This document shows positions 3,001 through 62,707 of a stretch of DNA of 64,000 nucleotides, one piece after another. A program made the position numbers and the translations under genes. The stretch is taken from contig OY811983.1 of assembly GCA_963681505.1 (NCBI GenBank), positions 6,001,590-6,065,589 on the forward strand. Direction: 5' to 3'. How positions within the stretch are numbered: position 1 is the first letter of the stretch; the number at the start of each line of letters is the position of its first letter. A model generated the notes under the pieces. The model saw only the letters and a list, made by a program, of their open reading frames with translations. It had not been told where the DNA came from and did no database searches. Source of the stretch: Eunapius fragilis (taxonomy: Eukaryota > Porifera > Demospongiae > Spongillida > Spongillidae).

Positions 3001-3429
3001 GAAGGATGACGCTGCTGAGGTTATTGATGAGTCAGCAGTCAGTGGAACTGAAATCACAACTGAAAGTGGGCAGCACCAAATGAAGATCTCTGTAACTGTG
3101 ACCAGGCCATGTATCGCCCTTATTGAGACACCTGGCATTCCTGATCCCAAGATACTAGTCCTTGAGGTCCGGAGTATTTCTCCATTGCATTTTAGATGTA
3201 ACTGCATATGTGACAACATAAAATGGAGGATGGTTATTAGTCTTGTATTGTTAAAAGAGCCATAATGTTTTGACTTTACTTTGTCTTGCTCCTCCCCCCT
3301 TTAATACTTCTGCACTAGATGGTTGTCAGTGTTGACCTGGAGCAGAAAACGGAGTGCTGGAATTTAGGTGCAACTGTTAAAGCACTGCATGTAGCGTCAA
3401 CTAATTACATGTCTCTTGGCCATACTGAG
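1..3429 (+). CDS. VPS13: Gene 1, exons 1-10: end of repeated lipid-groove region
   Basis: Exons: 1-237 (continues upstream), 311-665, 724-880, 938-1014, 1245-1393, 1857-1909, 2140-2252, 2456-2619, 2803-3166, 3319-3429. They encode beta-rich repeating groove (RBG) segments. Exon 1 carries APLVVLPLTSTSSSAFVADL, followed by an ITSVQLF strand. Exon 2 carries FHGHVIRKLSDW and an acidic, low-complexity loop. They match exons k, l, a, b, c and d of the repeated unit in gene 2; then gene 1 jumps straight to the equivalent of gene 2 exon 61150-61265. The exons matching e-l of gene 2 unit 5 (about 346 codons) are absent, and the junction keeps phase 1. Donors at 3167 (GTCCGG) and 5612 (GTCAGT) are weak but needed for frame. 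The intron 1394-1856 shows nothing recognisable. Confidence 0.85.
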
Positions 3430-32300: not shown

Positions 32301-35300
32301 CCAGGCTTTTGTAAAGTTATGGTCAGTTATTACTACTGTAAGCTAAAAGTATCCACATGTCGTAAATATATGCTGTAAAATTAAGGCATTGATAGTTTCA
32401 TTTGAATTAGTGGTCATAAGCTCATTTCCCACTCAACCAATTATGTAATTTGGTCCATTAAAATTATTTTCTGAATCCTATATGTATTAACTTTCCTAGG
32501 TCTTGCCATAAACAAAACACATATGGATTTATTTCCTTGCAGACTGCCAGCTTGGAAAAACTACAGGAAGCATCCTATGATAACTTCAATGTTCAGATTA
32601 GCAATGTTCAGTTAATAATGACCAGTTCAGGTGGGCACACTGATATGTTGTAGTTAATAATAACCAGTTCAGTTGGGCACTGATATGTTGTAGTTAATAA
32701 TGACCAGTTCAGATGGGCACTGATATGTTGTAGTTAATAATAACCAGTTCAGATGGGCACTGATATGTTGTAGTTAATAACGACCAGTTCAGATGGGCAC
32801 TGATATGTTATAGTTGATAATAACCAGTTCAGGTGAGCACTGATATGTTGTAGTTAATAATGCAATGACAGGTACGGATATGTTAATGATTCCTTCCAAA
32901 ACACCCTAATGTTGAGTGCATCCCATTTTGCAATAATAATAAGATATACTGGAACCATAATGTCATGGCATTAAATTGCATCAGTTGTAATTATGCTGTT
33001 GCATGAGAATGTAGCACCTCAGAACCCATGAATGAAATTCATTAGTGTGTGCAAATCTATTTGATTAGATGTACTTCCATAAATTCTAAAATATTTTTCA
33101 TCATCACATAGTTACGTGAAATGTATTTATATAAAACCTATCATATCATAACAATATTTGTGCATACGCAATAAGTTGGGACTTCCTGACACCATGGGTC
33201 TTTCACTATTATTATGACATATTAAGTATTAATGATGCATATACTAGGAGAAGACTGGAAGAAGGCATTACTCTCTCATGACTCCACCCACCATCTACTG
33301 AAGCCCACTGCCTTGGACCTTGTAGTGAAGAAGAGCATTCTTCCCACAGACACAAGACTACCAAGGTCTAGTGTAGTGAATTTGTGTGCATCCCCCCCCC
33401 CCCACCCCCCAACTTTACGTTATGTTGGTATCAAATTTTACATCCGTACATTTAGCTAGTTATGTAAACCTTCGATTCCTTTTCATTTTTTATTTTCCAT
33501 TAGTTCATAATGATGATGGAAATAAGTCTGCAGATGCCTTTTGATTGAAAAACAAAACTCACACTCTTTTTATTTTAATGGTTGAGATAATGTGTATTAT
33601 GAGGTATAACATGAACATGAAACCAGGCAAACAGTGCATAGTAAAAAATATGAAGCCTTTTATATAAGTACAAATCCTTTTTCAATGTACATACAGCCTG
33701 ATTGTGAGTGGGACGCTTCCTTCTATTGCCCTCATTCTATCAGACAAGAAGGTCAAACAAGTTATCAAGGTACTTATGGGTATGACTTGTGCCTTTCATG
33801 CAGGGTTGGGGGGAGGGGGGGGGGGGGTAATTTCTTTGTGCAAGTGTGCGTGGTGTTCAGTTGCCATTTGATCTCAAGTGCTTTTCCACATCACAGTTGG
33901 TTAAAAGTCTGCCCCTTCCTCCTTCCCTGGATTCAAAGCCTGCTGTACCTGTTATTGTATGTTACACATGCAACATAATGTTATGTATAATCTATTGCAT
34001 ATAGGTTCTTGTGTGAACATGCATTCTTTTATATGCTACTATTTCTGGTTAAATGTAGGCTTACAATAAGGACATCACTGCATCATCTGTAATCACTAAA
34101 GATGCTGCATCTGCAATCCCTGTGATATCCAGAAGTCCATCTGGTTCAGAAAGTAGGGTACTTACACGCACTTGCATGTTACAAGTATATACATACTGCA
34201 GTAGTCGGATTGAAACTGAGTCAGTGATTGTTTATTAGGACCACTAAATAAGAAATACCAATGCATTACAGTACACTTCAATCATTACACCCGTTATGAA
34301 ATATGATTTCTATTCCTCTAGTTCATTTGAAAACAATCCCTATGAAAATTCAAAGTTGATATTAATGAGGGTCCAGAGATTTTCTTACCTTCATTCATGA
34401 AATTGCAATATATGAAGCCTTGATTGATGTGCAGTAGTTCGAACTTTCAGTTACATAGCATCCCTTGAAATAAAAAGTGAAATGGTCAATGTATAATGCC
34501 ATGTACAGACTAATTTTAATACCAAACAATTTCAAAATCTCTTTACAAGTCCATTACATCCTTTTCTTGCAAAATAATAATAGTGGCTAGTCATTTTAAA
34601 AAAGTTCCATACATTCGAGGTGTGAAAATACATTCACCTGTCCTGAGTTATTATATGTAATTTTTGTTTATAGGTGTGAAATTTGATACCGCTCATGAGG
34701 GTGAAGAGGAGGAAGAGGTAAAGGGAAAAGAGCAAGGTGTTGTGGACATAATCAAGCTCAAGTTAAACTTTGCAATTAATGAGGTATGTGCAGACATATG
34801 AGCCATTTGAGCCATAATGCAACATCATTGTCTGCTATACTGTACCCTCACCATGTCCTTACCATGCCCTCACCATGCCCTCACTATCCCCTTACCATCC
34901 ACCCACCATGCCCTCACCACCCACCATGCCCTCACCACCCACCATGCCCTCACCACCCACCATGCCCTCACCACCCACCATGCCCTCACCACCCACCATG
35001 CCCTCACCACCCACCATACCCTCACCACCCACCATACCCTCACCACCCACCATACCCTCACCACCCACCGTGCCCTCACCACCCACCATGCCCTCACCAC
35101 CCACCATGCCCTCACCACCCACCATGCCTTCACCACCCACCATGCCCTCACCACCCACCATGCCCTTACCACCCACCATGCCCTCACCACCCACCATGCC
35201 CTCACCACCCACCATGCCCTCACCATGTCCTCACCACCCACCATGCCCTCACCACCCACCATGCCCTCACCACCCACCATGCCCTCACCACCCACCATGC

Positions 35301-38300
35301 CCTCACCACCCACCATGCCCTCACCATGCCCTCACCATCCCCTCACCATCCCCTCACCATGCCCTCACCATGCCCTAACCATCCCCTCACCATCCCCTCA
35401 CCATGCCCTCACCATGCCCTCACCATGCCCTCACCATGCCCTCACCATGCCCTCACCATGCCCTCACCATGCCCTCACCATGCCCTCACCATGCCCTCAC
35501 CATGCCCTCCATGCACACCATAAGCATAACTAATTTAAGCACTTCATCCAGAATATTTGGAAATGATTTCGTTTGGTATCAGATGGCCTTGCTATAATTT
35601 CATTTATTTTGATCACTAATATTTACTGGTCAGTACAGTGATAATTAATGCTATACTGAATTATATTAGTTTTTAAAGGTTGTACTCATTTATAAACACT
35701 GCACCTAATGCTGACGTAGCATGCGGTCACAATTTTGTTGACTGAGGGCGTATATTTTTTATGATACCCTTGTTAATATGGAAATGCATATAATATTACA
35801 GCATGTTACCAGAATACTGGGTAATAATTGTATTATAATGTATCAGTGCACATAACCCAATCCCTGTAGCCATTTTATGTTTAGGTGCACATCAATGCTG
35901 TTCTCCTTTCAGATAGTTGTTGACTACAGTGAGTACATCGATGAGGCGGACAGTGAGAGACTCAAGTTCCTCTTGGTTAAGATGGAGACAGAGATGGTGA
36001 TGAGAAATTGGGACCTTAGGGTATCTGCCTCAGTTGGGAGTGCACAGATCCAGGATTACATTTCCATAGGTGAGTGAGATGCAACATACCATCTTATAAG
36101 GGCGTTTGAGAGTAAAACTTGCTGATAAATAGATGCTGATGGACAGCCCCACCCTCTTTTGAGCTCAGGATCGGAAAAGAGAAAGTTTCTCAATGCATCA
36201 TACTGCAAGGTGTGCGTACATGAAGCATTATGTATTCATTCATGGGGTGTTTTTTTTACTTATAACACACCTTATTTGGATTGGTAAATGTTTATTCCTC
36301 AGAATGACAGGCAATCTCCAGAATATGGTTCTGGTCCCCACCCCACTGAGCAGTTTATCAGTGCAGATATGTCAGTAGTGAATGTTCGGTTACTGAAAGA
36401 GTCCCTTATCAAGCTGATGTCCATGGGCCTTTCCATTATGGCCGAGATCAAGTGAGTGCCTCTATTTAACAAATGGTAATGGAAGTATTGTTTCAACACC
36501 ACTTCTGTGAAGGGCTAATGATCAACCATCAAAAGGCATTGATGTTAAGGAAATTATTGTACGAACGGAGGAAGGAAAGACAAAGAAATGTGGGTGTGGA
36601 AAAATTACCAGCTTGGATGTGTTAATAATTAGTGATCCCCCCCCCCCCCCCCCCTCCCCCCCCTCCCCATTTATTGTCATCCTCAGTGCCAGTTTCAAGG
36701 CAGCACCTTCCTGGTGAGAGAGAGGTGTACATTGAAGCCAAGTTTGGTGGTCTGGGTGTGACCCTTGGAGATGAAAATGGAGACATCCTGAGTGCCAATA
36801 TGATAGGTGTGTATCATGCACCAAGTGCACACACATGTGTGTACACAAAAGTAGGCACCTGTGTACCTATGAAGGAAGATGGTTTTAAATAATTTGTTTG
36901 TCTGCAAGGTGCCACCATCACACTTTGTGGCATGCACAAATGTTTCACCAAATGCACCCTCAGCATCTCATGTATGGGAAGTAATTAGTTATCATTTTTT
37001 AATGACCTGCAGATCTCAGTACATCCGTTACTGTCATTGAGGGACAGGCTGTTGTGACAGCAAGGTGGGTGATATGATGAGTTTGTCTATACTGATGTGT
37101 GTAACCGTGTGCAAGGTTGCTTAATGGATGCCCTTCCCTGCAGAATGATGAACATTATGGTCAGTGACAAGGATAAGGACAGCTACCATACCAAAGTGAG
37201 TAAGATGGGAAGCTTATGCAGTACATACAGTATGTGTAGAGTTGCTCCACCTCACTTACATTTCATCCGTTTACTCTCTTCAGGTCGTTAGTAAGATGGA
37301 TGATTCTGCAACTATAATATCAGCAGAGGTTGGTATTCATTCACAATCGTGGGATATTTTACGCTTTCATGGCACAACTCTGGTGGTTAATTAGATCAAA
37401 ATGTTCAGAAATGTTGATGAGGACATCAGTTCTGCAGATCTGCACGTGTCAGCCACTGTGCAGAGGCTGACCATCTTTCTTGTTTTCAAGTTTGTGAACA
37501 GGGTGTTGGTAAGTTGATGTGGTTACCCAAAGGCATTAGTACCCATAGAGGCAAAGAGTGCATTTTCCTTACCAATAATTTAGAGTGGGGGCAAGAAATT
37601 TCAAATAATTAATTCAATGAATTTAATTATGCCATTCCAATGTAAATGCCCCTCGCCATTACACCACACAATAAGTGCATTTGCGTGTGTAGAGTTATGT
37701 AGATGAGCTGATAGACAAGCTGGACTCAGCCAAATCAACATACGGATTGTATGACGAGAGAAACTCATCAAAAGCTATTGCTGTGAGTTGTTATAATTTA
37801 CAATCACTCATACAATTCAAGGGATGTCTATGTAGGCTGAAGTAAAGAATGTTAAAAAGGAGAAGAATGGAAGTAAAATAGGACTTTCAGTTTCCATCAG
37901 TGCTCCCTTGGTGGTCCTCCCTCTGACCTCTACCTCCTCCAGTGCCTTTGTGGCAGACCTTGGTCAGATGGAAGTCACCAACACATTTCTTCTTGCAGAG
38001 AAGGTAGCTGTTGGACAGCAGCTCCCTTCTGAGAAGTATCGCTCATCTGGAGGTATTCCAGCCATTGTTGATGATATGACAATAGACATCACTTCAGTAC
38101 AACTGTTCAAGTGAGTCCATAGTGATCATGGTACTGAGTGATGTGGTCAAATTGAAGATATCCCGTGTACACCCTACATGGAAAATCTTATTGCATGTGG
38201 ACTTGAGATTGTTGTAATTCTATTGAACAATTGATTCTTGTTTCCTTTGGCTGTACAGGGTTAATGACACAACCAAATTGAAAAGAGAGAACTGGGATCA

Positions 38301-41300
38301 CATGATCATAACACCTATTCAGTTCCATGGTCACGTGATCCGCAAGCTTAGTGATTGGTGCAGTGTAGTTCCAGATTTCAGTATTGATGCAGAGCTCCCT
38401 TCTTTGGATGTCCAGCTAGGTCCTGGTGACTACAGTGCCATCTTGTCTTTGATGAATTCCCTGAGTGATGGTCGGCCCACCACACCGGCTGATCTGGGAG
38501 AAGGTGGTGATCATGCAAAAGAAGAGAAAGAGGAGAAAGGAGTGGAGAGTAAGGCATCAGGTGTGCCCACACACACTAAAGATGATACATCAAGCAGTTA
38601 TGTAAAGCTATTAATGAAGTTCCGTATGAAAGAGGTAATGTTTGTATTTGCTGTTGAGGATATGGTACTACTGCTAGAACTCTGTTAGGTTGTTGTATGT
38701 TTGAATGAACAAAGTGATAATGGGAACATTGAGAGACTGAAGTTCCTCCTGAGTGAGATGGAGACAGAGGTGAAGACAAGGGCCTGGGACTTGAAGTTGA
38801 CTGCCTCAGTTGGGATAGCAGAGATTCAGGATCTCCTTACCAAGAGTGAGTAATAAAAATGCATATGCATATGTTTTGAGAAAATATGTTGTGCACTTAG
38901 ATGATGATGGAGAATACCACGTCTTATTGAGTTCAGGCTCTGCAGGGAAGAAATTTCTAAAAGTTCAGTATTGCAAGGTACAGTACATATGATGGGGTGG
39001 ATAATTCCTGCCTGTTTTTATTATATCTCATTGTATACTTGGTATACAGAATGACCCATCATATCCACACTATCGATCCAGTCCCCAGCCCACTGAGCAT
39101 GTCATTAATGCAGACATGTCCATGGTGAAGGTACAGATACTGAAAGGGTCCCTTGTTAAGCTGATGTCCACTGGCCTCTCTATTCTGGATGAGATAAAGT
39201 GAGTGTCACCTTCAAATATCTTGTTCATTGTTTTTTGCCTTGTGTTGGGTCATTTATCACTATTTCCTGCATAGTGCCAATGACCAATCCCCTAAAGACA
39301 TCATTACCAATGTCGTACTAACTGATGAGGGAAAGCTCAAGACTGGTAGGTTGGGTTTGGACATGATAGGATTTCCTAAGGCATAACTGCTGACATCCTT
39401 GTGCATCCAGTATCAGTTGCAAGACAGCACCTTCCTGGTGAGAGGGAGGTGTACATTGAAGCCAAGTTTGGTGGTCTGGAGGTGACTGTTGGAGATGAAC
39501 AGGGAGACATCCTGAGTGCTGATATGACAGGTACGTGTTGTATGCTATACACAGATACAGTGTATTTGAAAATGTGAATTGGATATGCAGCAGAAAGTAG
39601 ATGATTTCAAATTGCATTGAGAAGTACCTCTCAAATCTGCTTCTGTGTATCTGAATAGTGAGGTGAAGAAATGGCTACTCCCATATTCGTAGTTTGGTGT
39701 AAATGTTGCATGAGTTCTTTACTTCATAATTAGGATCTAATCACAGGTACACCCAAAGTCCATATTTATTATTAAATGGGGTCGAGGCAGCCAAAAGGGA
39801 TCTAGCGCATATTATAAAAATTTTCCAGGAAGGAGCATCAAAGTTGACGCATGCAATTAAAATGCGTACATAGTTAAAAATTCAGGCCACTGCAACTCCA
39901 TAATGGACAGACTAATTTGCAGTATGAAAGAAAGAATTTTCAGAGAACATAGGTGTCTGTTACAATATGAAACAATTTGAAAACTTGAAAAAATATTCAC
40001 TTGGTCCCTTTTTTACTGCCTCAATCCTATATATATATATATATATGGGACAGTTCATGCGAAAATGTCGTTTCGCATATATTTATAATAATGTTATAAA
40101 AATGCGTCTCGTTTGAATCACTGTATCTTCCTAACGGTTAAGGCTATCAACTTTCTGATCTCAGCACTTCATACCACACCATTTCTCTATGGTAAAATAC
40201 ATTTTGGGGTCTCGCACTTGCTCCGTGCTAGTATTGCAACGCTCGATACCCCTCCGGGTTAAAACCCGCCATAACTTTCTGTATGAGTAATCAAAACGCT
40301 TCAAATTCGGTTTATAGGTAGAGAGGTCCTATACCTATCGATTTGTTCTGTTCGTTAATTTTTGTGCAATCCGTTACAGAGATACAGCCGTGCAAAGTTG
40401 TTTCAAGTTTCACGCTCGAATCGCGCCATTGTACCTACGCGAACCGCTTCCATTCACCGGAGTACATGAATATTCAACTACATCCTGTGGGCTGGGACAT
40501 TTATAACCACCACACGTCACTGTGAGCAATGTTTATTGCGTAATGTAGTCTGGGGACCTCAATTGCATACTGCAGAAGAAGCTTTTGATATTTCGCTTTA
40601 AGTTTTAGACGTTGACTTGCGCGTATGATTTCGAACGGTGCGAAGACGACAAGATACAAGATCAATCTGATGAAAAAGTTTGAGAGCGGTAGCGATCGGT
40701 GGCAGATAGCTGTGGAGCAGGCAGGCGAGTAGTTGATCCCGTAGTACGTGGACAACTGTAGAGTATGGCACAGGGGTTTGGGGACATAAGTGGAATTAAT
40801 CGTTTTGTGACGTTTTGGCAATATTTAATATTGTCAGACGCCATTAATTGATGTGGTGTGTAAACATGTACTACACGCGTGGATTTTGTGTCAACATGTG
40901 ACGTTTCACAATAGACCACATTTTTGGAATGACGCAATTAATTAACCGCCTAACACATGAATGTCATTTATGTCCCCACTGAAACCCCTGATGGCAGATA
41001 GTTGTGAGTAACTGCATGCATGCTGTGGAGTGGACCCTACGGCAGACAGCAGTGGAATAAGCACTACAGCAGACAAAACCTAAGCTAGGCAGCTATATAA
41101 TGGACCCTATGGCAGAAAATAGGACAGAGGGAAAACTTCATAACTAGTACTATCAACAAGCCAGGCACATGCAACTGTGGAATCCATTCCACAGTGGAAC
41201 CCAGAGTGCAGTAAACAGCTGTAGAGATGTTGGACCATAAAGTAGACGATACAAATAAATAGGTTGTGTGGACCCTTCAACAGATATCAACACTGTACTG

Positions 41301-44300
41301 TGTGGAATGGACTCTACTGCAGACATGCATATTGCATTGAGTGGCATACATCGGAGTGGATCATATGGCAGGCAGACAACTGTAGAGTGGACCATATGGT
41401 AGAACCTCACAGCAGTGGTCACTGACAGCTGAGAAGCAGACAGACATGTATGTAACTTTGCAAGCAGCTGTGGAGTGGACCATGCAGCTATTCCTTCCTG
41501 TGATTGCCGTGTCAGCCATGGAGTGGACCCTGTTTTGAATGGACTCCACCTTACCCTGTGCTATTGAGTGGACTCCACCCTACCCTGTGCTATTGAGTGG
41601 AGTCCACCCTACCCTGTGCTATTGAGTGGAGTCCACCCTACCCTGTGCTATTGAGTGGACTCCACCCTAACCTGTGCTATTGAGTGGAGTCCACCCTACT
41701 CTGTGCAGTTGAGTGGACTCCACCCTACCCCCCTGTGCGGCACTCTACAGCTGAGATGACTCATAGATGTATGGTGTACATGTGACCCCTTTACAACACA
41801 TACGTAGATGACTCTTAACAACACAGATGTATAGTGTACAGGTGACCCCTTAACAACACATACATAAGGTGTTCAGAGATAACAACACAGATGTATGGTG
41901 TACAGGTGACCCCTTAACAACACATACATAAGGTGTACATAGATGACTCTTAACAACACAGATGTATGCTGTACAGGTGACCCCTTAACAACACATACAT
42001 AAGGTGTACATAGATGACTCTTAACAACACAGATGTATGCTGTACAGGTGACCCCTTAACAACACATACATAAGGTGTTCAGAGATGACTCTTAACAACA
42101 TAGATGTATGGTGTACAGGTGATCCCTTAACAACACATACAGAAGGTGTACATAGATGACTCTTTAATAACACAGACATATGATGTATACTGCAGAGGTG
42201 ACCTTAAACTACATAAAAAGCATGCATCTCACAATATGGTTCGTTTGTCATGAACCATGCTTGTTCTTGTTGTGAGTGTAGAGTGCACCACTGGTGCCGT
42301 ACTTCTTGCCACACACCGAACAGGAAAATGGCCTGTCAATTTCAGAGACCCCATCAGGGATAATCCTCTGCGTTTAATAACAGGTGGCATCACTTGGCTC
42401 TGATAAGCCTCCTATATGTCCTTTATGGCCACTCCAGCCCTTAGCTAGTTCACCTCGGTGGGGTTTGCATCCGATGGCAAGGTCTTCAATTTCACGACAC
42501 CAGGGTGTTAGGGTTGGGGGGGGGGGGGGGGGGTTGGGAGGAGTCCACTCAATTCTACAGAGTAGAGTGGCTCCACTCAATAGCCCAGGTTAGGGTGGAG
42601 TCCACTCAGTAGCACAGGGTAGGGTGGACTCCACTCAGTAGCACAGGGTAGGGTGGAGTCCACTCAATAGCACAGGGTAGGGTGGAGTCCACTCAGTAGC
42701 ACAGAGTAGGGTGGACTCCACTCAGTAGCACAGGGTAGGGTGGACTCCACTCAATAGCACAGGGTAGGGTGGAGTCCACTCAATAGCACAGGGTAGGGTG
42801 GAGTCCACTCAGTAGCACAGGGTAGGGTGGACTCCACTCAGTAGCACAGGGTAGGGTGGACTCCACTCAATAGCACAGGGTAGGGTGGACTCCACTCAGT
42901 AGCACAGGGTTGGGTGGACTCCACTCAATAGCACAGGGTAGGGTGGAGTCCACTCAATAGCACAGGGTAGGGTGGAATCCACTCAGTAGCACAGGGTAGG
43001 GTGGAGTCCACTCAATAGCACAGGGTAGGGTGGAGTCCACTCAGTAGCACAGGGTAGGGTGGACTCCACTCAGTAGCACAGGGTAGGGTGGACTCCACTC
43101 AATAGCACAGGGTAGGGTGGAGTCCACTCAGTACCACAGGGTAGGGTGGACTCCACTCAGTAGCACAGGGTAGGGTGGAGTCCACTCAATAGCACAGGGT
43201 AGGGTGGAGTCCACTCAGTAGCACAGGGTAGGGTGGACTCCACTCAGTAGCACAGGGTAGGGTGGACTCCACTCAATAGCACAGGGTAGGGTGGAGTCCA
43301 CTCAATAGCACAGGGTAGGGTGGAGTCCACTCAGTAGCACAGGGTAGGGTGGACTCCACTCAGTAGCACAGGGTAGGGTGGACTCCACTCAATAGCACAG
43401 GGTAGGGTGGACTCCACTCAGTAGCACAGGGTTGGGTGGACTCCACTCAATAGCACAGGGTAGGGTGGAGTCCACTCAATAGCACAGGGTAGGGTGGAGT
43501 CCACTCAGTAGCACAGGGTAGGGTGGACTCCACTCAGTAGCACAGGGTAGGGTGGACTCCACTCAATAGCACAGGGTAGGGTGGAGTCCACTCAATAGCA
43601 CAGGGTAGGGTGGAGTCCACTCAATAGCACAGGGTAGGGTGGAGTCCACTCAATAGCACAGGGTAGGGTGGAGTCCACTCAATAGCACAGGGTAAGGTGG
43701 ACTCCACTCAATAGCACAGGGTAGGGTGGACTCCACTCAATAGCACAGGATAGGGTGGAGTCCACTCACTAGCCCAGGTTAGGGTGGACTCCACTTAATA
43801 GCACAGAGTAGGGTGGAGTCCACTCAATAGCACAGGGTAGGGTGGACTCCACTCAATAGCACAGGGTAGGATGGAGTCCACTCAATAGCACAGAGTAGGG
43901 TGGAGTCCACTCAATAGCACAGGGTAGGGTGGAGTCCACTCAATAGCACAGGGTAGGGTGGACTCCACTCAATAGCACAGGGTACGGTGGACTCCACTCA
44001 ATAGCACAGGGTAGGGTGGACTCCACTCAATAGCACAGGATAGGGTGGAGTCCACTCACTAGCCCAGGTTAGGGTGGACTCCACTTAATAGCACAGAGTA
44101 GAGTGGAGTCCACTCAATAGCACAGGGTAGGGTGGACTCCACTCAATAGCACAGGGTAGGATGGAGTCCACTCAATAGCACAGAGTAGGGTGGAGTCCAC
44201 TCAATAGCACAGGGTAGGGTGGACTCCACTCAATAGCACAGGGTAGGGTGGAGTCCACTCAATAGCACAGGGTAGGGTGGACTCCACTCAATAGCACAGG

Positions 44301-47300
44301 GTAGGGTGGACTCCACTCAATAGCACAGGGTAGGGTGGAGTCCACTCAATAGCACAGGGTAAGGTGGAGTCCATTCAAAACAGGGTCCACTCCATGGCTG
44401 ACACGGCAATCACAGGAAGGAATAGCTGCATGGTCCACTCCACAGCTGCTTGCAAAGTTACATACATGTCTGTCTGCTTCTCAGCTGTCAGTGACCACTG
44501 CTGTGAGGTTCTACCATATGGTCCACTCTACAGTTGTCTGCCTGCCATATGATCCACTCCGATGTATGCCACTCAATGCAATATGCATGTCTGCAGTAGA
44601 GTCCATTCCACACAGTACAGTGTTGATATCTGTTGAAGGGTCCACACAACCTATTTATTTGTATCGTCTACTTTATGGTCCAACATCTCTACAGCTGTTT
44701 ACTGCACTCTGGGTTCCACTGTGGAATGGATTCCACAGTTGCATGTGCCTGGCTTGTTGATAGTACTAGTTATGAAGTTTTCCCTCTGTCCTATTTTCTG
44801 CCATAGGGTCCATTATATAGCTGCCTAGCTTAGGTTTTGTCTGCTGTAGTGCTTATTCCACTGCTGTCTGCCGTAGGGTCCACTCCACAGCATGCATGCA
44901 GTTACTCACAACTATCTGCCATCAGGGGTTTCAGTGGGGACATAAATGACATTCATGTGTTAGGCGGTTAATTAATTGCGTCATTCCAAAAATGTGGTCT
45001 ATTGTGAAACGTCACATGTTGACACAAAATCCACGCGTGTAGTACATGTTTACACACCACATCAATTAATGGCGTCTGACAATATTAAATATTGCCAAAA
45101 CGTCACAAAACGATTAATTCCACTTATGTCCCCAAACCCCTGTGCCATACTCTACAGTTGTCCACGTACTACGGGATCAACTACTCGTCTGCCTGCTCCA
45201 CAGCTATCTGCCACCGATCGCTACCGCTCTCAAACTTTTTCATCAGATTGATCTCGTATCTTGTCGTCTTCGCACCGTTCGAAATCATACGCGCAAGTCA
45301 ACGTCTAAAACTTAAAGCGAAATATCAAAAGCTTCTTCTGCAGTATGCAATTGAGGTCCCCAGACTACATTACGCAATAAACATTGCTCACAGTGACGTG
45401 TGGTGGTTATAAATGTCCCAGCCCACAGGATGTAGTTGAATATTCATGTACTCCGGTGAATGGAAGCGGTTCGCGTAGGTACAATGGCGCGATTCGAGCG
45501 GGAAACTTGAAACAACTTTGCACGGCTGTATCTCTGTAACGGATTGCACAAAAATTAACGAACAGAACAAATCGATAGGTATAGGACCTCTCTACCTACA
45601 AACCGAATTTGAAGCGTTTTGATTACTCATACAGAAAGTTATGGCGGGTTTTAACCCGGAGGGGTATCGAGCGTTGCAATACTAGCACGGAGCAAGTGCG
45701 AGACCCCAAAATGTATTTTACCATAGAGAAATGGTGTGGTATGAAGTGCTGAGATCAGAAAGTTGATAGCCTTAACCGTTAGGAAGATATTGTGATTCAA
45801 ACGAGACGCATTTTTATAACATTATTATAAATATATGCGAAACGACATTTTCGCATGAACTGTCCCATATATATATATATATATCCCTACCATATTGACT
45901 TCTTTCCAAAATGATTGCCCTTAAAACCAATGCTATAGAGCTCCCCAAATTAGCCATTGCACAACTTGTACCGTATCATCTCACAGCTTTTGGATGTGAA
46001 TATAGCTCACATCAGATTTTATCCGCAAACATTAATAGTTCTAACTCTTGTTTTAAATATAACATTGATATGACCAAAATGATTACATTTAACAAATGCC
46101 TTAGCACTGATTGGCTGTTATGTAAGCTCATTGCTTACAGAAGTAAGTGTGCATCATACAACTTCCTTCTTTGCTTCACAGACTTCTCAACAACAATAAC
46201 TGTTCTGGAGGAACAGACTATGATAACTGCAAGGTATGTTGTAATGTCCACATGAATGAGTGTGTGAACATAGTACTATTATTCATCTCCAATGTGCATG
46301 GGTTGGATAACTTCACATGTAGTATGAAGGACATAATAGTCACTGACAAGGAACCACACAGCTATCATTCCAAGGTGCGGCTGCTGGTGTGCTTTTCCAT
46401 ACTACATTACATACTCCCTCTCTCTTTTATCCCATTTGCTCATTCAATACTATCTTCAGGTTGTTAGAAAGATGGATGAGTCAACAACAGTCATATCAAC
46501 GGAGGTATGTTCTCTTTATATTTGGTGAGACTCTGTTGTAAATCTCTGGGGGGTAATTAGATCAAAGTGTTAAGAAATGTTGACACGACCAATAAAGCCA
46601 TCGACAGTGAAGATATGCATGTCTCCGCCACTGTGCAGAGACTGACAGTGTTTCTTGTGTTCAAGTTTGTAAACCGAATAATAGTGAGTGAGGTTATTCA
46701 TGGATTGCAACCATTTAATCACTACATATGTGCAAATGTAGGATTGTGTGAATGTGTTGATGGATGAAATGAACTCAGCCAAGTCAACTTACGGATTGTC
46801 ATTATCAGAGGGTCACTCTAAGGATGTGAGTAACAAGTTAATGTGAAGACTTGCTTTCCCTAATGTGTCATAACATAGGCTGAAGAGCAGCATAGGCGGC
46901 AGCAAGAGAAGAATGGAAGTAATATAAGACTTTCAGTTTCCTTCAGTGCTCCGTTGGTGGTGCTCCCTCTGACCTCTACCTCCTCCAGTGCCTTTGTGGC
47001 AGACCTTGGTCAGATGGAAGTCACCAACACATTTCTTCTTGCAGAGAAGGTAGCTGTTGGACAGCAGCTCCCTTCTGAGAAGTATCTCTCATCTGGAGGT
47101 ATTCCAGCCATTGTTGATGATATGACAATAGACATCACTTCAGTACAACTGTTCAAGTGAGTCCATAGTGATCGTGGTACTGAGTGATGTGGTCAAATTG
47201 ATCTTATTGCATGTGGATTTGAGACTGTTGTAATTCTATTGAGCATTTGCTTCTTGTTTTCTTTGGCTGTACAGGGTTAATGACACAACCAAATTGAAAA

Positions 47301-50300
47301 GAGAGGACTGGGATCACATGATCATAACACCTATTCAGTTCCATGGTCACGTGATCCGCAAGCTTAGTGATTGGTGCAGTGTAGTTCCAGATTTCAGTAT
47401 TGATGCAGAGCTCCCTTCATTGGATGTCCAGCTAGGTCCTGGTGACTACAGTGCCATCTTGTCTTTGATGAATTCCCTGAGTGATGGTCGGCCCACCACA
47501 CCTGCTGATCTGGGAGAAGGTGGTGATCATGCAAAAGAAGAGAAAGAGGAGAAAGGAGTGGAGAGTAAGGCATCAGGTGTGCCCACACACACTAAAGATG
47601 ATACATCAAGCAGTTATGTAAAGCTATTAATGAAGTTCCGCATGAAAGAGGTAATTTTTGTATTTGCTGTTGAAGATATGGTACTACTGCTAGAACTCTG
47701 TTAGGTTTTTGTACATTTGAATGAACAAAGTGATAATGGGAACATTGAGAGGCTGAAGTTCCTCCTGAGTGAGATGGAGACAGAGGTGAGGACAAGGGCC
47801 TGGGACTTGAAGTTGACTGCCTCAGTTGGGATAGCAGAGATTCAGGATCTCCTTACCAAGAGTGAGTAATAAAAATGCATATGTTTTGAGAAAATATGTT
47901 GTGCACTTAGATGATGATGGAGAATACCACGTCTTATTGAGTTCAGGCTCTGCGGGAAAGAAATTCCTGGATGTTCTGTACTGGAAGGTATGGAAAGGAT
48001 GGATAATTTCTGTGCAGAGTCATTGTATTTTATGTTTCACATGATATACAGAATGACCCATCATCTCCACACTATCGGTCCAGTCCCCAGCCCACTGAGC
48101 ATGTCATTAATGCAGACATGTCCATGGTGAAGGTACAGATACTGAAAGGGTCCCTTGTTAAGCTGATGTCCACTGGCCTCTCTATTCTGGATGAGATCAA
48201 GTGAGTGTCACCTGCAAATATTTTGTTCATTGTTTTTTGCCTTGTGTTGGGTCATTTATCACTATTTCCTGCTTAGTGCCAATGACCAATCCCCTAAAGA
48301 CATCATTACCAATGTTGTACTAACTGATGAGGGAAAGCTCAAGACTGGTAGGTTGGGTTTGGACATGATAGGAGCTCCTAAGGCATAACTGCCGACATCC
48401 TTGTCCATCCAGTATCAGTTGCAAGACAGCACCTTCCTGGTGAGAGGGAGGTGTACATTGAAGCCAAGTTTGGTGGTCTGGAGGTGACTGTTGGAGATGA
48501 ACAGGGAGACATTCTGAGTGCTGATATGACAGGTACGTGTTGTATGCTATACACAGATACAGTGTAATTGGATATGCTGCCAAATCTAGATAGATCCAAC
48601 CACGTGGTAGAGGTTAATGGAATCCAGAAATGTTGGGGATATCATTGAAACTTACTTCCCCAGTCATGATGAATTTAAGCTTTTTTTGATAGTATACCTG
48701 ATTTAATAATGCCCGTATTCATATAGTTAGGTGGAAATGTGTTAATTCAATTGCATTTGTTGATAGCTTCATTGCACCAAGTCTATATCCCTGCCATATT
48801 GATATCTTTCCAAAGTGATTGCCCTAAATCCAGTTCTGTGGAGCTCACCAAAATGGCCAATGCACAACTTGTACTGTTATGTCTCACAGCTTTTGGATGC
48901 ACATCATTTTTTATCTGCAAACATTCAATCTTATATGTAGCATTGAGTTGACCAAAATAATTCCAAATAATCACCTTGAAAGGTTTCCAGCACTGATGAT
49001 GGGTCACTAAAGTTAATTGCTTATGGGTATAACCATAATAATGAAAGTGAAGAGCTTTCAATTTTCTTTCTTTTTTTCTCCTGCTTCATAGACTTCTCAA
49101 CAACAATAACTGTTCTGGAGGAACAGACTATGATAACTGCAAGGTATGTTGTAATGTCCACATGAATGAGTGTGTGAACATAGGACTATTATTCATCTCC
49201 AATGTGCTTGGGCTGGATAACTTCACATGTAGCATGAAGGACATAATAGTCACTGACAAGGAACCATACAGCTATCATTCCAAGGTGCGGCTGCTGGTGT
49301 GCTTTTCCATACTACATTACATACTCCCTCTCTCTTTTATCCCATTTGCTCATTCAATACTATCTTCAGGTTGTTAGAAAGATGGATGAGTCAACAACAG
49401 TCATATCAACGGAGGTATGTTCTCTTTATATTTGGTGAGACTGTAGTGTAAATCTCTGGTGGGTAATTAGATCAAAGTGTTAAGAAATGTTGACACGACC
49501 AATAAAGGCATTGGCAGTGAAGATATGCATGTCTCCGCCACTGTGCAGAGACTGACAGTGTTTCTTGTGTTCAAGTTTGTAAACCGAATAATAGTGAGTG
49601 AGGGTTATTCATGGATTGCAACCATTTAATCACTACATATGTGCAAATGTAGGATTGTGTGAATGTGTTGATGGATGAAATGAACTCAGCCAAGTCAACT
49701 TACGGATTGTCATCATCAGAGGGTCACTCTAAGGATGTGAGTAACAAATTAATGTGAAGACTTGCTTTCACTAATGTGTCATAACATAGGCTGAAGAGCA
49801 GCATAGGCGGCAGCAAGAGGAGAAGAATGGAAGTAAAATAGGACTTTCAGTTTCCTTCAGTGCTCCCTTGGTGGTCCTCCCTCTGACCTCTACCTCCTCC
49901 AGTGCCTTTGTGGCAGACCTTGGTCAGATGGAAGTCACCAACACATTTCTTCTTGCAGAGAAGGTAGCTGTTGGACAGCAGCTCCCTTCTGAGAAGTATC
50001 TCTCATCTGGGGGTATTCCAGCCATTGTTGATGATATGACAATAGACATCACTTCAGTACAACTGTTCAAGTGAGTCCATAGTGATCATGGTACTGAGTG
50101 ATGTGGTCAAATTGATCTTATTGCATGTGGATTTGAGACTGTTGTAATTCTATTGAGCAATTGCGTCTTGTTTTCTTTGGCTGTACAGGGTTAATGACAC
50201 AACCAAATTGAAAAGAGAGGACTGGGATCACATGATCATAACACCTATCCAGTTCCATGGTCACGTGATCCGCAAGCTTAGTGATTGGTGCAATGTAGTT

Positions 50301-53300
50301 CCGTATTTCAGTATTGATGCAGAGCTCCCTTCATTGGATGTCCAGCTAGGTCCTGGTGACTACAGTGCCATCTTGTCTTTGATGAATACCCTAAGTGATG
50401 GTCGGCCTACCATAGCTGCTGCTGATAAGGGAGAAGGTGATGGTGATGCAAAAGAAGAAAAGGAGAATAAAGGAGTAGGAAAAAAAGAAACAGACGTGTC
50501 CCCTACTACCAAGGAAGCTGCTGTCACATTATTAATGAAGTTTCATATGAAAGAGGTATAATTATCACAACATATTGTGAACTATTTCATTACCATTTTG
50601 TATTAGGTTGTCCTTCATTTGAATGAGGAAACTGATGGTATGAAGTATGAGAGACTGAAGTTCCTCCTGAGTGAGATGGAGACGGAGATGGTGATGGGAA
50701 CCTGGGACCTGAGTGTGGCTGCCTCTGCTGGGAGTGTGGAAATCCAAGATCATTTTACTAAAAGTGAGAGGGATGCACATCCATTAAACGAGGTTATGCT
50801 CATGTCCTTGTGCTGTAGGTAGTGACAGGGTGCATCACACACTGCTAAGTTCTGGTGGTTCAGTGGGAGAGAGGTTCATGAGTGTCAAGTATTGCAAGGT
50901 AGGTTACAAAAGAAATAGTAACAGCCTTTTCTCCCTCCTCTTGTCTCATCATTTACTAAATTGAAGAATGTATAAATTCAGAACCATTTGCTTCATTTTC
51001 TATTATACTTTCTCTTGTCCTCTCGATTGCCATCATTGCCATTAAATTCATGTAACTGTAGATGCATTGCCGAATATGAGTGAATGGATACATCTGTGTT
51101 TTTTGTATGACATGCAGTTTTTATACGTTGTGTGTATATGTGTGTATGTGTGTGTGTGTGTGTTTGCTAAGCTGCAACTGTTAAACTGGTCTATGATTAT
51201 ATTAATAGGTATAATTAAATGGAACCTGTTAGTTTTGGTGCAGAAGTAAAATAATAACTATCTTTTATATGGATTGATAGTTTATGCATGGAGAAATTCA
51301 GATGGGGTTTCTTCTTTATATGGCTTTATTTATCATGTAGTTGTTCTCACCATTTTGGTAGGCACAATTATTATAGAAACGATTTACGGTCTTTACGTGG
51401 CATTAATCAGGGATTTAAATTCTTCGCAAGCATATGGTAAAATTTATAATGCTAGGAAAAGTTTCAACACAGCTTAGAAAAATGAAGAAAACAATTTGGT
51501 GAATATTTGGATCAAGCGTGCATAAGGCCCCTCGTTGTGGCAATGCTTCCCAAATGATCATTTGGCTTTATGGGATGCTACTCCTGTCCCCAGCATGAAG
51601 TTGTATTGTTCTTACCATAGGACAATATTGCGGACTCAAGTTGTGTGGGATTATAGTCTGAAAGGTTACCATTGTCATAGATTTAATTTCATCATGAATA
51701 GGTATATGGTTTTGAAGCCCTTTCTCATTTACTATCTCATCATCGGACCCACAGAAGGGGGGGGGGGGGGGGGGGGGGGGGGGTAATCAAATAATTATCA
51801 CCTTCCATATACAGAATGATCCAAAATCACCATGTTACAGTTCCAGTCCTCACCCAACTGAGCAGTTTGTTAGTGCAGATATGTCAATAGTGAAGATAGA
51901 GATTTTGAAAGGGTCACTTGTCAAGCTCATGTCAATGGGCCTTTCAATTCTGGATGAAATGAAGTGAGTGTTAAGTGTTTCTCCCCCTCCCCCGCCCCTC
52001 TCCCTCTGGAATTATATTATGGCATTTGTTCCATGAATCCTAATTATCCATCCCCTTTAAAGTGCTAGTGACGAGTCTCCAAAAGATATCATCACCAAAG
52101 TGGTACCAGCAGAAGAGGGAAAGACTAAGACTGGTGAGTTGAGATTAAACATATTCTTCTGTCTGGAGGCAAGGCGTGACACCAACACGTGTGTCTCTAG
52201 TATCAGTTGCAAGACAGCACCTTCCTGGTGAGAGGAAGGTGTACATTGAAGCCAAGTTTGGTGGTCTGGAGGTGATCTTTGGAGATGAACATGGAGAGAT
52301 GCTGAGTGCTGATATGACTGGTTAGTAGCTGGTAACATGCATAGTGATGACTAAATGAGTTTGTAATGATCATTTAACTTTTAGAACGATAGCCAAGTGT
52401 AACTTGCATAGATCAGTATACTTCATTTGTGTTCAAAGCCAGAGTGGGCATGTATTAAACTTAATTGATTTATCATGAATTTTAAATTCAAAATGGCAGC
52501 ACTTTATTAAAGCAGAGAATGTTGTAACATGCAAATCTTCTTGGAACCAGTTAATTTAAATTGTATTGTTTGTCTCATGTCAATACAGACTTGAATACAA
52601 CTGTTGTTGTTCTAGATGAGTGGACTACAGTGGCAGCAAGGTAAATGGCAACCCACATGAAGGAATACATTACATTGTCATGACCATACATTCTATAGCA
52701 TCAATAACATTATAGTCTCTGACAAAGATCCAAGCAGCTATTATCCAAAGGTGGGTGAGAAGGAGGACACTTTGTTCTCCTTGCTATGTAGTTGATCCAT
52801 TTTAATTAGATATATTTTAAACCACCAGGTTATTAGTAAGATGGATGATTCAGCTGCAGTGATATCAGCAGAGGTGTGTATTCTCTGTGTGTCATTTTGT
52901 CTTATGGAACACTTCTGGTTGGTGATTAGATCAAACTAGTCAAGAATGTAGAAAAGACTACTGTGGACATTAACAGTGCAGATTTCTGTGTATCAGCCAC
53001 TGTGCAGAGACTAACAGTGTATTTTGTGTTCAAGTTTGTGAATAGAGTGATGGTAAGTGGATATGTTATTGATGGAGACAGCAACATTTTCATCACTACT
53101 TATATACATTTGAAGGATTGTGTAAATGTGCTAATGGATGAAATTAACTCTGCCAAGTCAACACATGGATTGTCTGAGGAGACAACACCTTCAAAAGCTG
53201 TGAGTAATGAATTTGTACATATTTAATACTTTTTTATTTCTTTAACACTTAAAAATAGGCTGACAAGCAGATCACACAAGTGGAGAAAAGTGGAAGTAAA

Positions 53301-56300
53301 ATAAGACTTTCAGTTTCCATCAGTGCTCCCTTGGTGGTCCTCCCTCTGACCTCTACCTCCTCCAGTGCCTTTGTGGCAGACCTTGGTCAGATGGAAGTCA
53401 CCAACACATTTCTTCTTGCAGAGAAGATAGCTGTTGGACAGCAGCTCCCTTCTGAGAAGTATCTCTCATCTGGAGGTACTCCAGCCATTGTTGATGATAT
53501 GACAGTAGACATCACTTCAGTACAACTGTTCAAGTGAGCTTGTACTTTTTTTGCATGCAACATGTATTTAAATGTTTATGCCATTGGCAATATGAATCAG
53601 TACTGTTATGACCTATCATAAATGTTAGAAAAACTGATGAGGTCCAATATATGATAGTTAGCACTAATGATGTATGTGCATTTGCCATAATAAGGCTTAA
53701 GTTTTCAGTACCTATATGGCTTACACGCATAGAGATGATTTTAATAACAAGTAGTGAAATGACGTCAATTATTACTTCATGGACATCTTTTGGCTATGCA
53801 GAGTTGATGACACAACCAAATTGAAAAGAGAGGACTGGGATCACATGATCATAACACCTGTCCAGTTCCATGGTCACGTGATCCGAAAGCTTAGTGATTG
53901 GTGCAGTGTGGTTCCAGATATCAGTATTGATGCAGAGCTCCCTTCATTGGATGTCCAGCTAGGTCCTGGTGACTACAGTGCCATCTTGTCATTGGTGAAC
54001 TCTCTGAGTGATGGTCAGCCCACCGCACCTCCTGCTAATAAGGGAAAAGGTGGTGATGATGTAGAGGAAGGAGAAAAGGCACATGATGAAGGAAATAAAG
54101 ATAATGAAGCATTTTCTGATGCTGCGTCAAATAATTACATGAAGTTGTTAATGCGGTTTAAAATGAAAGAGGTAAAATTTTTATTGTGGTGAAAAGTAGC
54201 CACTATCCCAATATCTTGCTTAGGTTGTCCTCCATTTGAATGAACAAAGTGACAGTGGGAACATTGAGAGACTGAAGTTCCTCCTGAGTGAGATGGAGAC
54301 AGAGATGGTGATGAGAACTTGGGACTTGGGGGTGACTGCCTCCATCGGTAGTGCACAGATCCATGAAAACTGTAACAAGGGTAAAAGAGATGGAGGTGGG
54401 TGTACTCATGTGTAAAAATTACCTGGATGGAGCATTTGACCCTTTGCGCATACAAAATCACATGTTGTAGAGAATGAACATTAGATGTTCGTATGTACCC
54501 ATGTTTACACATTGGTACTGACATTTCCTGGCAGAACAGACCTTTTATGTGTGGCTGTCAATTTATATGCAGGTGCTGAGAGAAGTACACACCTACTTTT
54601 GAGTTCTGGGTCACCAGAAAGGAAGTTTCTAAACGCTACTTACTGCAAGGCATGTGTGACATTGAGTGATTTGAGGAAGAATATGATATGATGTTCTAAT
54701 CCAGGGTGACCGGACATCTCCGCACTATGCTTCCAGTCCCCAACCCACTGAACAGTCTGTCAGGACAGACATGTCTGTGGTGAAGGCCTGGATACCTGTT
54801 CAATCCTGCATCTCGGTGGTGAACTTGGCAAACTCCATCGTGGCGGAAATAAGGTACTCGTGGGCAAGAGTTCCATAACATCCAAGGAATCCCCTGGGCT
54901 CTTGCTCAGGTTACATCCGCACCACACGCAGAAGAGGAAGGTTGTATGCTCAAATATGGGATGCTTTTGTTTTCATAGCTGAGATTAATAATGATGGAAA
55001 TGGTATACATTCTTTTGTGTGTGGGAGAGGGGGGGATGATAGTGTTAATATGGTGGTGGGGATACTGGAGGGTTGTGATATGAGGGTGGGTGACATGATA
55101 GGTGGTTGCGTTACTACACACTCATTCCTCTATGTGTACAACTGCAAATCACGTCTCCCTCTCCACCCACGCAGTCCAATGGAGAAGAAGATGCCCAGAA
55201 AGAAAGAGGACACGGGGGCTAGTACCAAGTGTAAGTTGAGAGGGACATGCACGATAGAGGAGAGTTCTCCCTGCCATGCTGTGACGTTGATTCTGAATTC
55301 AGAGGTCAAGTGCATTTCATCCAGTAGTAGACACTGCAGCATGCTCACAGTGCAATTGAGTTATGTAATGTCATGCATGCTTAAATAGCACACCTGATTA
55401 GTCTGAGGTGTAGTGTATGCTTATGGCAGATATAGTGGACAAGAATGTTGTTACAATACTTGGTTCAGCAGATGTAGGATTTTTTTTACAGGATAATTAT
55501 CCATTTACACTGTCAGCATTACATTTCTGAACTGATGGGAAGTTATTATGTGCACTTATTATGTGCACCTGTGAACTTTCCCCTGTGTGTATAATGTGTG
55601 GGTGTATGTGTGTGGGATGTGTTATATGCATGCATGCGTGTGTGTGTGTGTATGTGTGTGTGTGTGCATGTGCTTATGCATGGATGTGTGGGTATGTGTA
55701 CATGTCTCCGGTACATGTATATGGTATGTGTGTGTGTGTGTTTTGTATATGTGGATGCTTGTGTGCGTGTTAGCCAAGCATAGGTTTTGTAGAACCAGAG
55801 TATGTGAGCATAGAGATGTGCCATTCACGGTGTGTGCATCAGTACAGGTGTGCTAATTGAATTACTTCATTTGGTGTATGTTAGTAATTCCGTGTCCAGC
55901 AAAATTACATGTGTGTTGCATGTACATGTACATGGACACTGAGCATACTAGGCAGAATTGGCATCTTATGGTGGTTTGCCCTCTTCCTTTGAGATCAGCA
56001 ATTCCTGCTAAGCGATATTATTCAGGTGAGAGGGACATGTACTTAGAAGCCAGGTTTGGTGGTCTGGAGGTGACCCTTGGAGATGAACATGGAGATATTC
56101 TTAGTGCAAACATGACAGGTATACATGTGTTGCTGCTAATGTTAGTGTGTTATGTAATGTACATGTATGCATCCATGTGCTGTATATCAGTATAGGCTTG
56201 CGGTTTAAGATGTGGGCAGGAATGTATGGGAACAATTGTATTTCTAGCTAGGGTGAAGAGATGGTCACATGCAGATATTCCCTTGATATTAATGTCATAG

Positions 56301-56944
56301 CATACCATGTCAGCATGAATAGCTATACCTGCCTATACAACTGCAATGCATACAAGACAGTCTTAATGAGCTGTCTAGCCAGTATTCCGAATGGCATGTA
56401 GGAATAGATTCATGCAGGGGGGTTGTGGTTTAGTACATGTGTAGAATTGCCACTGGCTGTCACATGCAGATATTGGAGTCCATATGCATGTGGTATGCTG
56501 GGAGAGCATGAATATTGCTGTACAGATGATGACCTATACCTGCCCCTACAACTGCATTGCACATGAGACAATCCTAATGAGCAGTCTAGCCAGCATTCAG
56601 AAAGGCATGTGTTTTTAATGAGAACTATTGTCACCAGTCTGAAAACATCTGTTTATAGAGTCAAGTTATTTGTTTATGTTAGTGTTCATGGCTGGCACAT
56701 GCTCATGCCTTACACCACCCTTATGTGGTCCCTTATTATGTGCACATGGTTATACCTTTCTCTACTCTCTCTACCCATCTGTTTATTTATTTTGCTTCCT
56801 TATATTAGACCTTCAAATCACTGCAACGGTCATGGAAAAGCACAGTGAATTAATGGCAGCGTACGTGCTTAATTCTCAGGATTAAGACTTAAACATCTAA
56901 TTTTATGTGTTGGGGAGTTTTCAGGAGGCCATCATGTGCATAGG

Positions 56945-56981
<37 letters not shown>

Positions 56982-59390
56982 AATGGTGTGTATGTACATG
57001 AATGTGCGATGTGTATGTATTATATTTCTGTATGCTGCTATGCATCAGTTGTTTCCATCTAGGATGAAGGACCTTGCTTGTGAAAATTTACGTACCCCTG
57101 TGGGAACGATGACAAGAAAGGTTACCTGCTTCTGGTTTGAGTTACTAAAATGATATTTCTTTCATCTGTTTTAGATCGTATCAGTTTGTGAGAAAGCCAG
57201 TGCTATTGCTATCAAGGTACATTACTGTAGTACTGATATTGATCCACTGATTGATTTATGATGCACTGGAAATGCTATGGGATGGCGTATAGTTACAGCA
57301 TTGGGAGATGTGAACTTGGAGAGCAGTGTGTAATCAATAGCTGGGTATGTAATTGAAACTCTGTTGGATGTAAAATATGGAGTTAAGTTATTGGATTTCA
57401 ATTCTTAAAGTTAGCTATGGAATTGGTTGTAGTTCTAAATACTCTATGCAATAAATATTCTGTGTATGAGCACTTCTGTGCACTGGGAAACATCAGAATC
57501 GTATAATGTGATGTGCCGAGCAACCATGACAACTCATAAATGCAGATTCAGCAGTACCCTGAAGCCACAAAAGGAGCAGGGAAAGCCGACATGAACCAGT
57601 GTGACTTCTCAGTAGATTTGGATGTGGGGCGGGTCAGGGTATTTGTGGTCTACTCTGTCATTAGTCAAATTATGGTGAGTTAGTCAGATTACAGATGGGC
57701 AACTCTTACTAGCTAACTGTTCCACCTCTATCAGGGACTTGTGAAACAAGTGATTTCAATTCAAAAGTTTGACAAGCCATCAAAAGGTGACCAGGTTAAG
57801 GATGAGGGAGAAAATTCTAGAGAGGAGAGTTCTTCAACTGCACTGTTGCAAGGCGTGAGTGTTCTCACACAGCAAATGCATGCTTATCCTAATTAATTGT
57901 GCATATCTAACTAAACGAATGAGCTTTTTAGATAGTAGTGGGTGAATTTGATAAGGAAAGGGTGAGCATTTTGACTGTCCAAATTGCAACAGCAAAAAGC
58001 AAGGGATAGATGGCTTGGGATGAACAAGCGGCAAATTAAAGGATGCTTTTATTGCCTCAATCCATTATCTATTCTGCAATCTTCTTCGCTCTCCTAAGCT
58101 TTTTCATCTCCTAAACTTTTCTGTGCAGTCTTATTGTGAATCTCCACAAAAAAAAGCAGCCAGCTTCCACGTGGCTGTGCCTTTGCATGATAACTTTGAA
58201 AGCACAACGCACTGTCTTCCACAATGCACTTTTTTTTAGAAACTGTGCTAAAACAAGGCCAGTCAACAGTGTTATTATAGGAATGTCACATGACATGATA
58301 TGGTCATGGTGTGGTTACTAGTAGCCAGAGAAATGTCTTATATTTTTGAAGACAGATGCGTGACATTTTAGGTATAAAGCCATATTCGTAACATGCATGA
58401 GATAGGCTGCATGATGACCACATTTATGAGCCAGGCAAATGTGTGGGATGTGGGTGAGGAATTTTGCACTATATGGAGCAGAACAAAATGTGTGAGTGAA
58501 CTGCAAGGCACCTGTTAGACTGATTGAATCAAGTCTCTGCTATGGCCTCCTTTAGAGCTTTAATTTGGTGCATGTTCAGCAAACCCTTATGTGTACACAG
58601 ACCACCTGAATATACCACAACATACATGTATTGTGCTGTTCCACAAACTACATCACCATCTGTTGTGCATGTGAAGGGTAAGGGGCTTTCCATTGTAGCA
58701 GGAATGCATGTGAATAATTTTGGCATCTCATGTCTCCACAGAAGACTGGGGATGATGAGCCAAGGCTCCAGAAGACTGGTGGGGATGATGAGCCAAGGCT
58801 TAGGCTGAAGGCAAGGATTGATGCCCCAGAGCTAGTGGTCCCAGTCAGCTCCACGTCACGAGACGTTTTTGTGGCCTATCTTGGCATGGTGGAGCTTTCG
58901 AATATGCACAGTCTTGGCACAAACAAGGAGGGCGAGCAGCCAGTATTTGAGAAGGACACACTTCAACTTTCAAAGCTATCAGTGTACAGGTGGGCACTTC
59001 GTTGTGGTTCCTTTTAAATCAAGTCGCCATATAAGTCTTCGTGCATCAAGTGCAGACATTTTTGCATGCTTTTGTCCTTTAGCATGCCGTTCATTTTTAT
59101 TGTGACATGCACTGTCTGTTGATGGTGGTGGTGGTGGTGTGTGTGTGTGTGTGTGTGTACATAGGTCAGTGTATCAGATGGAAGCCGAGGATCCACTGGA
59201 GTGTAAGAGGCACATACTGCAGGACAGCTGGAGACTTTTAGTAACCATGCAGTGTAACTTAAGTCACGCCTGGTACAAGGAAGAGGACATTCCATATATT
59301 GCTCTCGAGGCCCACATCAGTGAACTGAAGGCAATGCATATTATATATAGCATGGTTACTCCAGCATTTAAATCACATGCACGCTTGGAT

Positions 59391-62659: not shown

Positions 62660-62707
62660 GTGTGTGCAAAGTATATGCAGTGCATTGCATGTGTCGAGAT
62701 CTTTGTG

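Follow-up and report, generated by a model that had tools for sequence, protein, structure and literature searches.

Predicted VPS13 genes with tandem repeats of a probable RBG5-6-7 module in the sponge Eunapius fragilis

Layout of gene B and its repeated exon block

The analysed window, a stretch of 64,000 nucleotides from the sponge Eunapius fragilis (C13:6001590-6065589, C13 being contig OY811983.1 of an assembly of 218.9 Mb in 24 contigs), contains a gene of the VPS13 family, gene B, and the end of a head-to-tail neighbour of the same family, gene A, which lies upstream of it. VPS13 proteins form bridges along which lipids pass from one cell membrane to another. With good confidence, gene B is predicted to encode a complete VPS13 protein in which a module that probably comprises three repeating beta-groove (RBG) domains, RBG5-6-7, occurs in tandem, in four conserved copies and one diverged copy; its neighbour has six copies plus a partial one. 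The analysis extended 70 kb beyond the window on its upstream side and 50 kb on its downstream side; these flanks include 7,500 N bases, among them positions 64001-69000 in window numbering. The exons and units of both genes are on the forward strand, and positions without a contig name are counted from the first base of the window.

The first exon of gene B (24855..24965) encodes a chorein start, MVLESVLVQVL..., with the motif at 24858 and positions 1-36 of the VPS13_N profile matched at C13:6026447-6026554. Exon chaining predicts a further exon before the units (34674..34783) that ends like exon l of the unit (...KLKLNFAINE); in VPS13C the residues directly before the module, ending at 919, are LLLKFEIKE. 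An 18-bp tandem array (about 32 copies, 34899-35502) lies in the predicted intron directly before the first unit. Four units, each comprising exons a to l, were then located by a template search: B1 (35913..38634), B2 (38689..47650), B3 (47705..50555) and B4 (50607..54171); every one of their 48 exons was placed. The unit is a single 12-exon block of about 526 residues with phase 0 at both ends. Its coding sum is 1584 nt in B2, 1578 nt in B3 and B4, and 1575 nt in B1, or 1584 nt if exon j of B1 is taken as 37693-37782 with the better donor GTGAGT. In their aligned coding bases, B2 and B3 share 94.8% identity. The e-f intron of B2, 6,651 nt long, contains a 29-bp minisatellite (about 64 copies, 42531-44378), about seven copies of its reverse complement (41535-41730) and, between these two, a 71/142-bp array at 41806-42187.

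The four units are followed by a fifth, B5 (54224..58989), in which exons a, b, c and e are clear and f, h and i weak, while d, g, j and l were not found by the template search; a k-like segment lies at 58796-58918 and a VPS13_M anchor at C13:6060382 (expectation value, E, 0.012). B5 is itself a diverged copy of the repeated module. A match to a receptor tyrosine phosphatase (E 0.00057), returned by the B5 search beside VPS13C and VPS13A, was taken as chance. Two conserved exons, 61625..61795 and 62315..62662, follow the units, and gene B continues past the window end. At all ten junctions in both genes the unit-to-unit introns measure only 51-59 nt and are in phase 0, leaving little room for separate promoters or gene ends, which argues that the units lie in one gene. 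A promoter and terminator scan of one junction found nothing, which is uninformative because its models are bacterial and the host is a eukaryote.

These results agree with a preliminary description of this DNA, which had reported four copies of the 12-exon unit in the same order and phases across 35913-54171, unit sums of 1578 or 1584 nt, a frame kept across 48 exons (partly imposed by the rules of our exon search) and a diverged fifth version. Its bounds for the gene, 34674-61265, proved too short, as the start of gene B lies near 24.86 kb and its end beyond the window. The proposal of a repeat-lengthened VPS13 stands for gene B but was incomplete, since the six-unit sister gene upstream had been missed.

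To be accepted by the template search, an exon had to be free of stops, to have an AG acceptor and a GT or GC donor, and to fit a length scale of 3-nt steps, so that the open frames and the kept frame are partly built in. A second run chained exons with homology support and without unit templates, likewise stop-free by rule; it overlaps all 48 exons of B1-B4, agreeing with the first run on both ends in 35 and on one end in nine more. The repeated blocks were first found by self-tblastn of the open frames, in which no template was used. The template search can also fail: it placed 7 of 12 exons in B5 and 4 of 12 in A7, the last unit of gene A. Full exon chains were recovered in all ten conserved units of both genes (120 of 120 exons, with 116 GT and four GC donors). 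In a simulation, 0.05 to 0.3 neutral changes per site produced on average 2.5 to 10.7 stops in a unit, but this is not relied on because the exon search itself excluded stops. Single open frames compared with Pfam gave nothing useful, and unconstrained exon chaining was dropped, as it predicted too many tiny exons.

Identity of gene B and of the repeated module

The family assignment was made with bit cut-offs of 80 for VPS13_N (PF12624), 50 for VPS13_M, 22.6 for VAB and 21 for VPS13_C. Gene B scores 407 bits for VPS13_N, and its predicted N-terminus matches VPS13A 1-225 (E 1.5e-47). B1 scores 63.9 bits for VPS13_M, a fragment of the gene scores 75.7 bits for VAB, and the VPS13_C end scores 26 bits; the C-terminal piece matches VPS13A (E 1.6e-36) and VPS13C 3262-3583 (E 3.7e-36). 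Matches to solved structures are to VPS13A, VPS13C and fungal Vps13 chains only, the sequences of VPS13B and VPS13D lying outside the comparison.

In a single-sequence search, unit B1 matches VPS13C twice and VPS13A once. A profile made from five of the ten units gives the same picture: positions 2-525 match VPS13C 921-1433, which is covered end to end, a second match lies at 1452-1909, and VPS13A is matched once. The module and its edges are the same as in VPS13C, where the matched segment ends NFEIKE at residue 1433; most units here end KF..KE. The two conserved exons after the units together cover VPS13_M 372-524 and weakly match VPS13C 1980-2117 (E 0.062). Because the matches before, in and after the units are colinear with VPS13C and VPS13A, the tandem sits where the duplication in VPS13C sits. 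As judged from sequence, the unit appears to correspond to the RBG5-7 module, matching both copies of the VPS13C duplication that Levine assigns to RBG5-7. VPS13A, whose chains are matched by the N-terminus, the module and the C-terminus of the sponge protein, has one copy of RBG5-7, whereas the genes described here have many. The matches to VPS13_N, VPS13_M, VAB, the C-terminus and VPS13C and VPS13A bear out the earlier view that the gene is a VPS13 and that its units are groove modules.

Gene A and probable exchange between units

Gene A begins upstream of the window, and the anchors of its six units, A1-A6, lie before and across the window start, with A1 starting 27,250 nt before it. Within the window, the template search placed the end of A6 (exons k and l, 1..665) and exons a, b and c of the diverged last unit A7 (724..1393); exons of A7 beyond these three were not credibly found by this search. 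An approximate exon model of the 3' part after the units (2369..24081) comprises the end of VPS13_M, VAB and the C-terminal region, with a VPS13_VAB score of 125.8 bits and an NPVGFIRG motif at 20423. The C-terminal exons end at about 24 kb, and gene B starts at 24.86 kb. The b-c introns of gene A are long in A3 (4.2 kb) and A6 (6.1 kb), and their common stretches, 83-86% alike, mark the duplication of a multi-unit block.

Nonsynonymous divergence (dN) is below synonymous divergence (dS) in all 45 pairs of the ten units, with dN/dS of 0.32-0.69, and 41 of the pairs differ at 13.7-26.6% of aligned coding bases. A2, A4 and A5 are mutually 92-96% identical and have in common a GC donor at exon a. 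Across units, exon d varies in length from 65 to 86 nt and exon l from 346 to 376 nt, and similarity between the genes is lowest in exons b, d, f, g and j. Outside the units, the alignable stretches of genes A and B are 72% (749 codons) and 66% (1,278 codons) identical, with dN of 0.18 and 0.24 and dS of 0.79 and 0.93, versus a synonymous divergence of 0.39-0.63 in the 24 A-B unit pairs.

The close identity of B2 to B3 and of A2, A4 and A5 to one another, and the repeat-filled 6.65-kb intron of B2, could be taken as signs of copies wrongly duplicated in assembly, but the divergence of 41 of the 45 unit pairs, the flanks of the ten exon-k copies, which differ at least between the genes, and the presence of the tandem in two genes make such an artefact extremely improbable. 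It is also highly unlikely that one or both genes are decaying copies. The divergence of both last units, A7 and B5, the apparent truncation of A7 and the GC donors of A2, A4 and A5 would fit decay; however, all ten conserved units have complete exon chains, dN/dS is below one in every pair, and dN is well below dS outside the units as well.

The exon trees conflict, and the units are mosaic. B2 has its closest relative in B3 for eleven of the twelve exons, but its exon l is 99% identical to that of B1; A3 resembles A6 most in exons a-e and A1 most in exon l. Intron-containing stretches are common to the blocks A1-A3 and A4-A6, and they take in portions of the long b-c introns of A3 and A6. 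Exon a begins distinctively, with IxVDYxEYID, in the first unit of either gene, and the two diverged last units, A7 and B5, cluster with weak support (75); several units are therefore probably older than the split between the genes.

Exon k, at 37836..38110 in B1, 46879..47156 in B2, 49790..50070 in B3 and 53259..53533 in B4, all placed by the template search, is nearly identical in all ten copies of both genes, silent sites included. Leaving aside the first 45 bases, exon k shows 97% identity between genes A and B, whereas the nearest 60 bases of the flanking introns show 46% (upstream) and 54% (downstream) between the genes; among the gene A copies, likeness in the upstream intron is 80%. 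Where all ten units have the same first two codon bases, 37 of 41 four-fold sites are invariant in the exon-k core versus 28 of 60 elsewhere (Fisher p 5.5e-6, only indicative because the sites are linked), and invariance is fairly high also in exons e (7/10) and l (13/21). A genome-wide DNA search with exon k returned the ten copies and one 55-base fragment, with no other match at E 0.01. The fragment, 93% identical, lies on the minus strand some 60 kb beyond the window (C13:6125513-6125567). Exon k was also examined for dual coding, but in every one of the ten copies none of the five remaining frames, two forward and three antisense, is free of stops, although one antisense frame has a single stop. 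Since these frames are closed and the k-like copy of B5 is only 41% identical over 41 residues, neither dual coding nor ancient constraint is a likely cause of the uniformity. The near-identity of exon k, although its introns differ between the genes, points instead to gene conversion halted at diverged introns, which would be the simplest reading of its homogenisation.

Predicted groove length and the bridge model

With three RBG domains for each unit and nine for the rest of the protein, gene B would have 21 domains without B5 and up to 24 with it, and gene A about 27-28, compared with 12-15 in the human VPS13 proteins. At about 2 nm per domain, the grooves would extend roughly 42-48 nm in gene B and 54-56 nm in gene A. 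Addition against VPS13C gives predicted proteins of about 5,330 and 5,970 residues, respectively, and the earlier estimate of around 5,400 residues for gene B is therefore sound.

Levine (PMC7613979) explains the extra length of VPS13C and VPS13D by a duplication of RBG5-6-7, of about 500 residues, and counts 12 RBG domains in VPS13A, fly Vps13 and yeast Vps13 and 15 in VPS13C and VPS13D; PMC13430412 describes 13 RBG motifs over about 300 angstrom in VPS13C by cryo-electron microscopy. Lengthening by RBG5-6-7 is thus already known, a point that the preliminary description had not included. The copy number is the new part: VPS13C and, set beside it by description, VPS13D are reported there to have two module copies, whereas gene B has four plus one diverged and gene A six plus a partial one. 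A partial literature search, at the level of titles and abstract openings, found no report of a VPS13 with more than two tandem RBG5-7 modules. The Toxoplasma VPS13, of 13,455 residues, is comparable by description in its lengthened groove, for which Levine infers, from a predicted strand count, 38 RBG domains and a span above 75 nm; it is a divergent parasite protein, and the part of PMC7613979 covered here describes no tandem copies of a defined block for it.

Unequal exchange between units could add or remove modules and, because both unit ends are in phase 0, each gain or loss would keep the frame. The modules would stack into a single continuous hydrophobic groove as in VPS13C, bulk lipid might be carried between membranes further apart than usual, and gene conversion would account for the stretches of module that remain alike in the two genes. 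The preliminary description had proposed, as a possible role, a fit to a wider contact site or a special cell type. We tentatively suggest that the tandem genes form a ladder of bridges of different length, in which unequal exchange and conversion, acting between units and between genes, add, remove and homogenise copies of the phase-symmetric RBG5-7 module, unit number may still vary among individuals, and grooves of roughly 42-56 nm serve gaps wider than those described for animal VPS13 proteins.

Several observations weigh against a tandem of groove modules in complete VPS13 proteins acting as longer bridges. The exon finder demanded stop-free exons in 3-nt steps, several queries were hand-trimmed gene predictions, and dN/dS of 0.3-0.7 is moderate constraint only. 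A query of B3 with part of B4 scores 47.3 bits for VPS13_M, under the cut-off, and the ATG2_C-like region has no Pfam match to any VPS13 or ATG2 family, though VPS13A and VPS13C match it by sequence. The AlphaFold model of exon k alone (mean pLDDT 41) is uninformative. Finally, a long VPS13 may owe its size to loops and not to a long groove: according to PMC13036008, the malaria protein PfVPS13L1 is roughly double VPS13A in residue number yet has 12 RBG domains, and flexible stretches make up most of the excess; in gene B, by contrast, the excess is the module itself.

Bridge length could instead be varied by alternative splicing, with cells skipping whole phase-0 units of one gene. Phase 0 at both ends of every unit would let any skip keep the frame, but this symmetry is equally expected from duplication alone, and the junction introns are short; we regard such regulation as unlikely. 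A plausible alternative, though short of probable, is that length is no ruler, the copies having arisen by unequal exchange and persisting as harmless additions or because they add lipid capacity, loops or docking sites. The unequal unit number of the tandem paralogues, the mosaic units with dN/dS reaching 0.69, the variable lengths of exons d and l and the low likeness of exons b, d, f, g and j between the genes agree with it. Complete exon chains in all ten conserved units and dN below dS in all 45 pairs speak against it.

The tandem paralogues with unequal module number, beside VPS13 loci with fewer anchors, would make bridge length testable against gap width. Together with the VPS13C duplication of the same protein block, they suggest bridge growth through an exon block with the same phase at both ends. 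Near exon k, VPS13_M anchors number six in gene A, four plus one diverged in gene B, two at a third VPS13 locus on C13 and one at a locus on C23, all counts being lower bounds. The third locus (5.31-5.35 Mb) has in 20 kb only an e-like and a k-like piece and is too diverged for an exon-by-exon unit count. Elsewhere in the genome, C15:1785383-1786009 matches VPS13_N positions 1-221 within one open frame of 527 residues (130 bits), apparently an intron-poor VPS13-type N-terminus.

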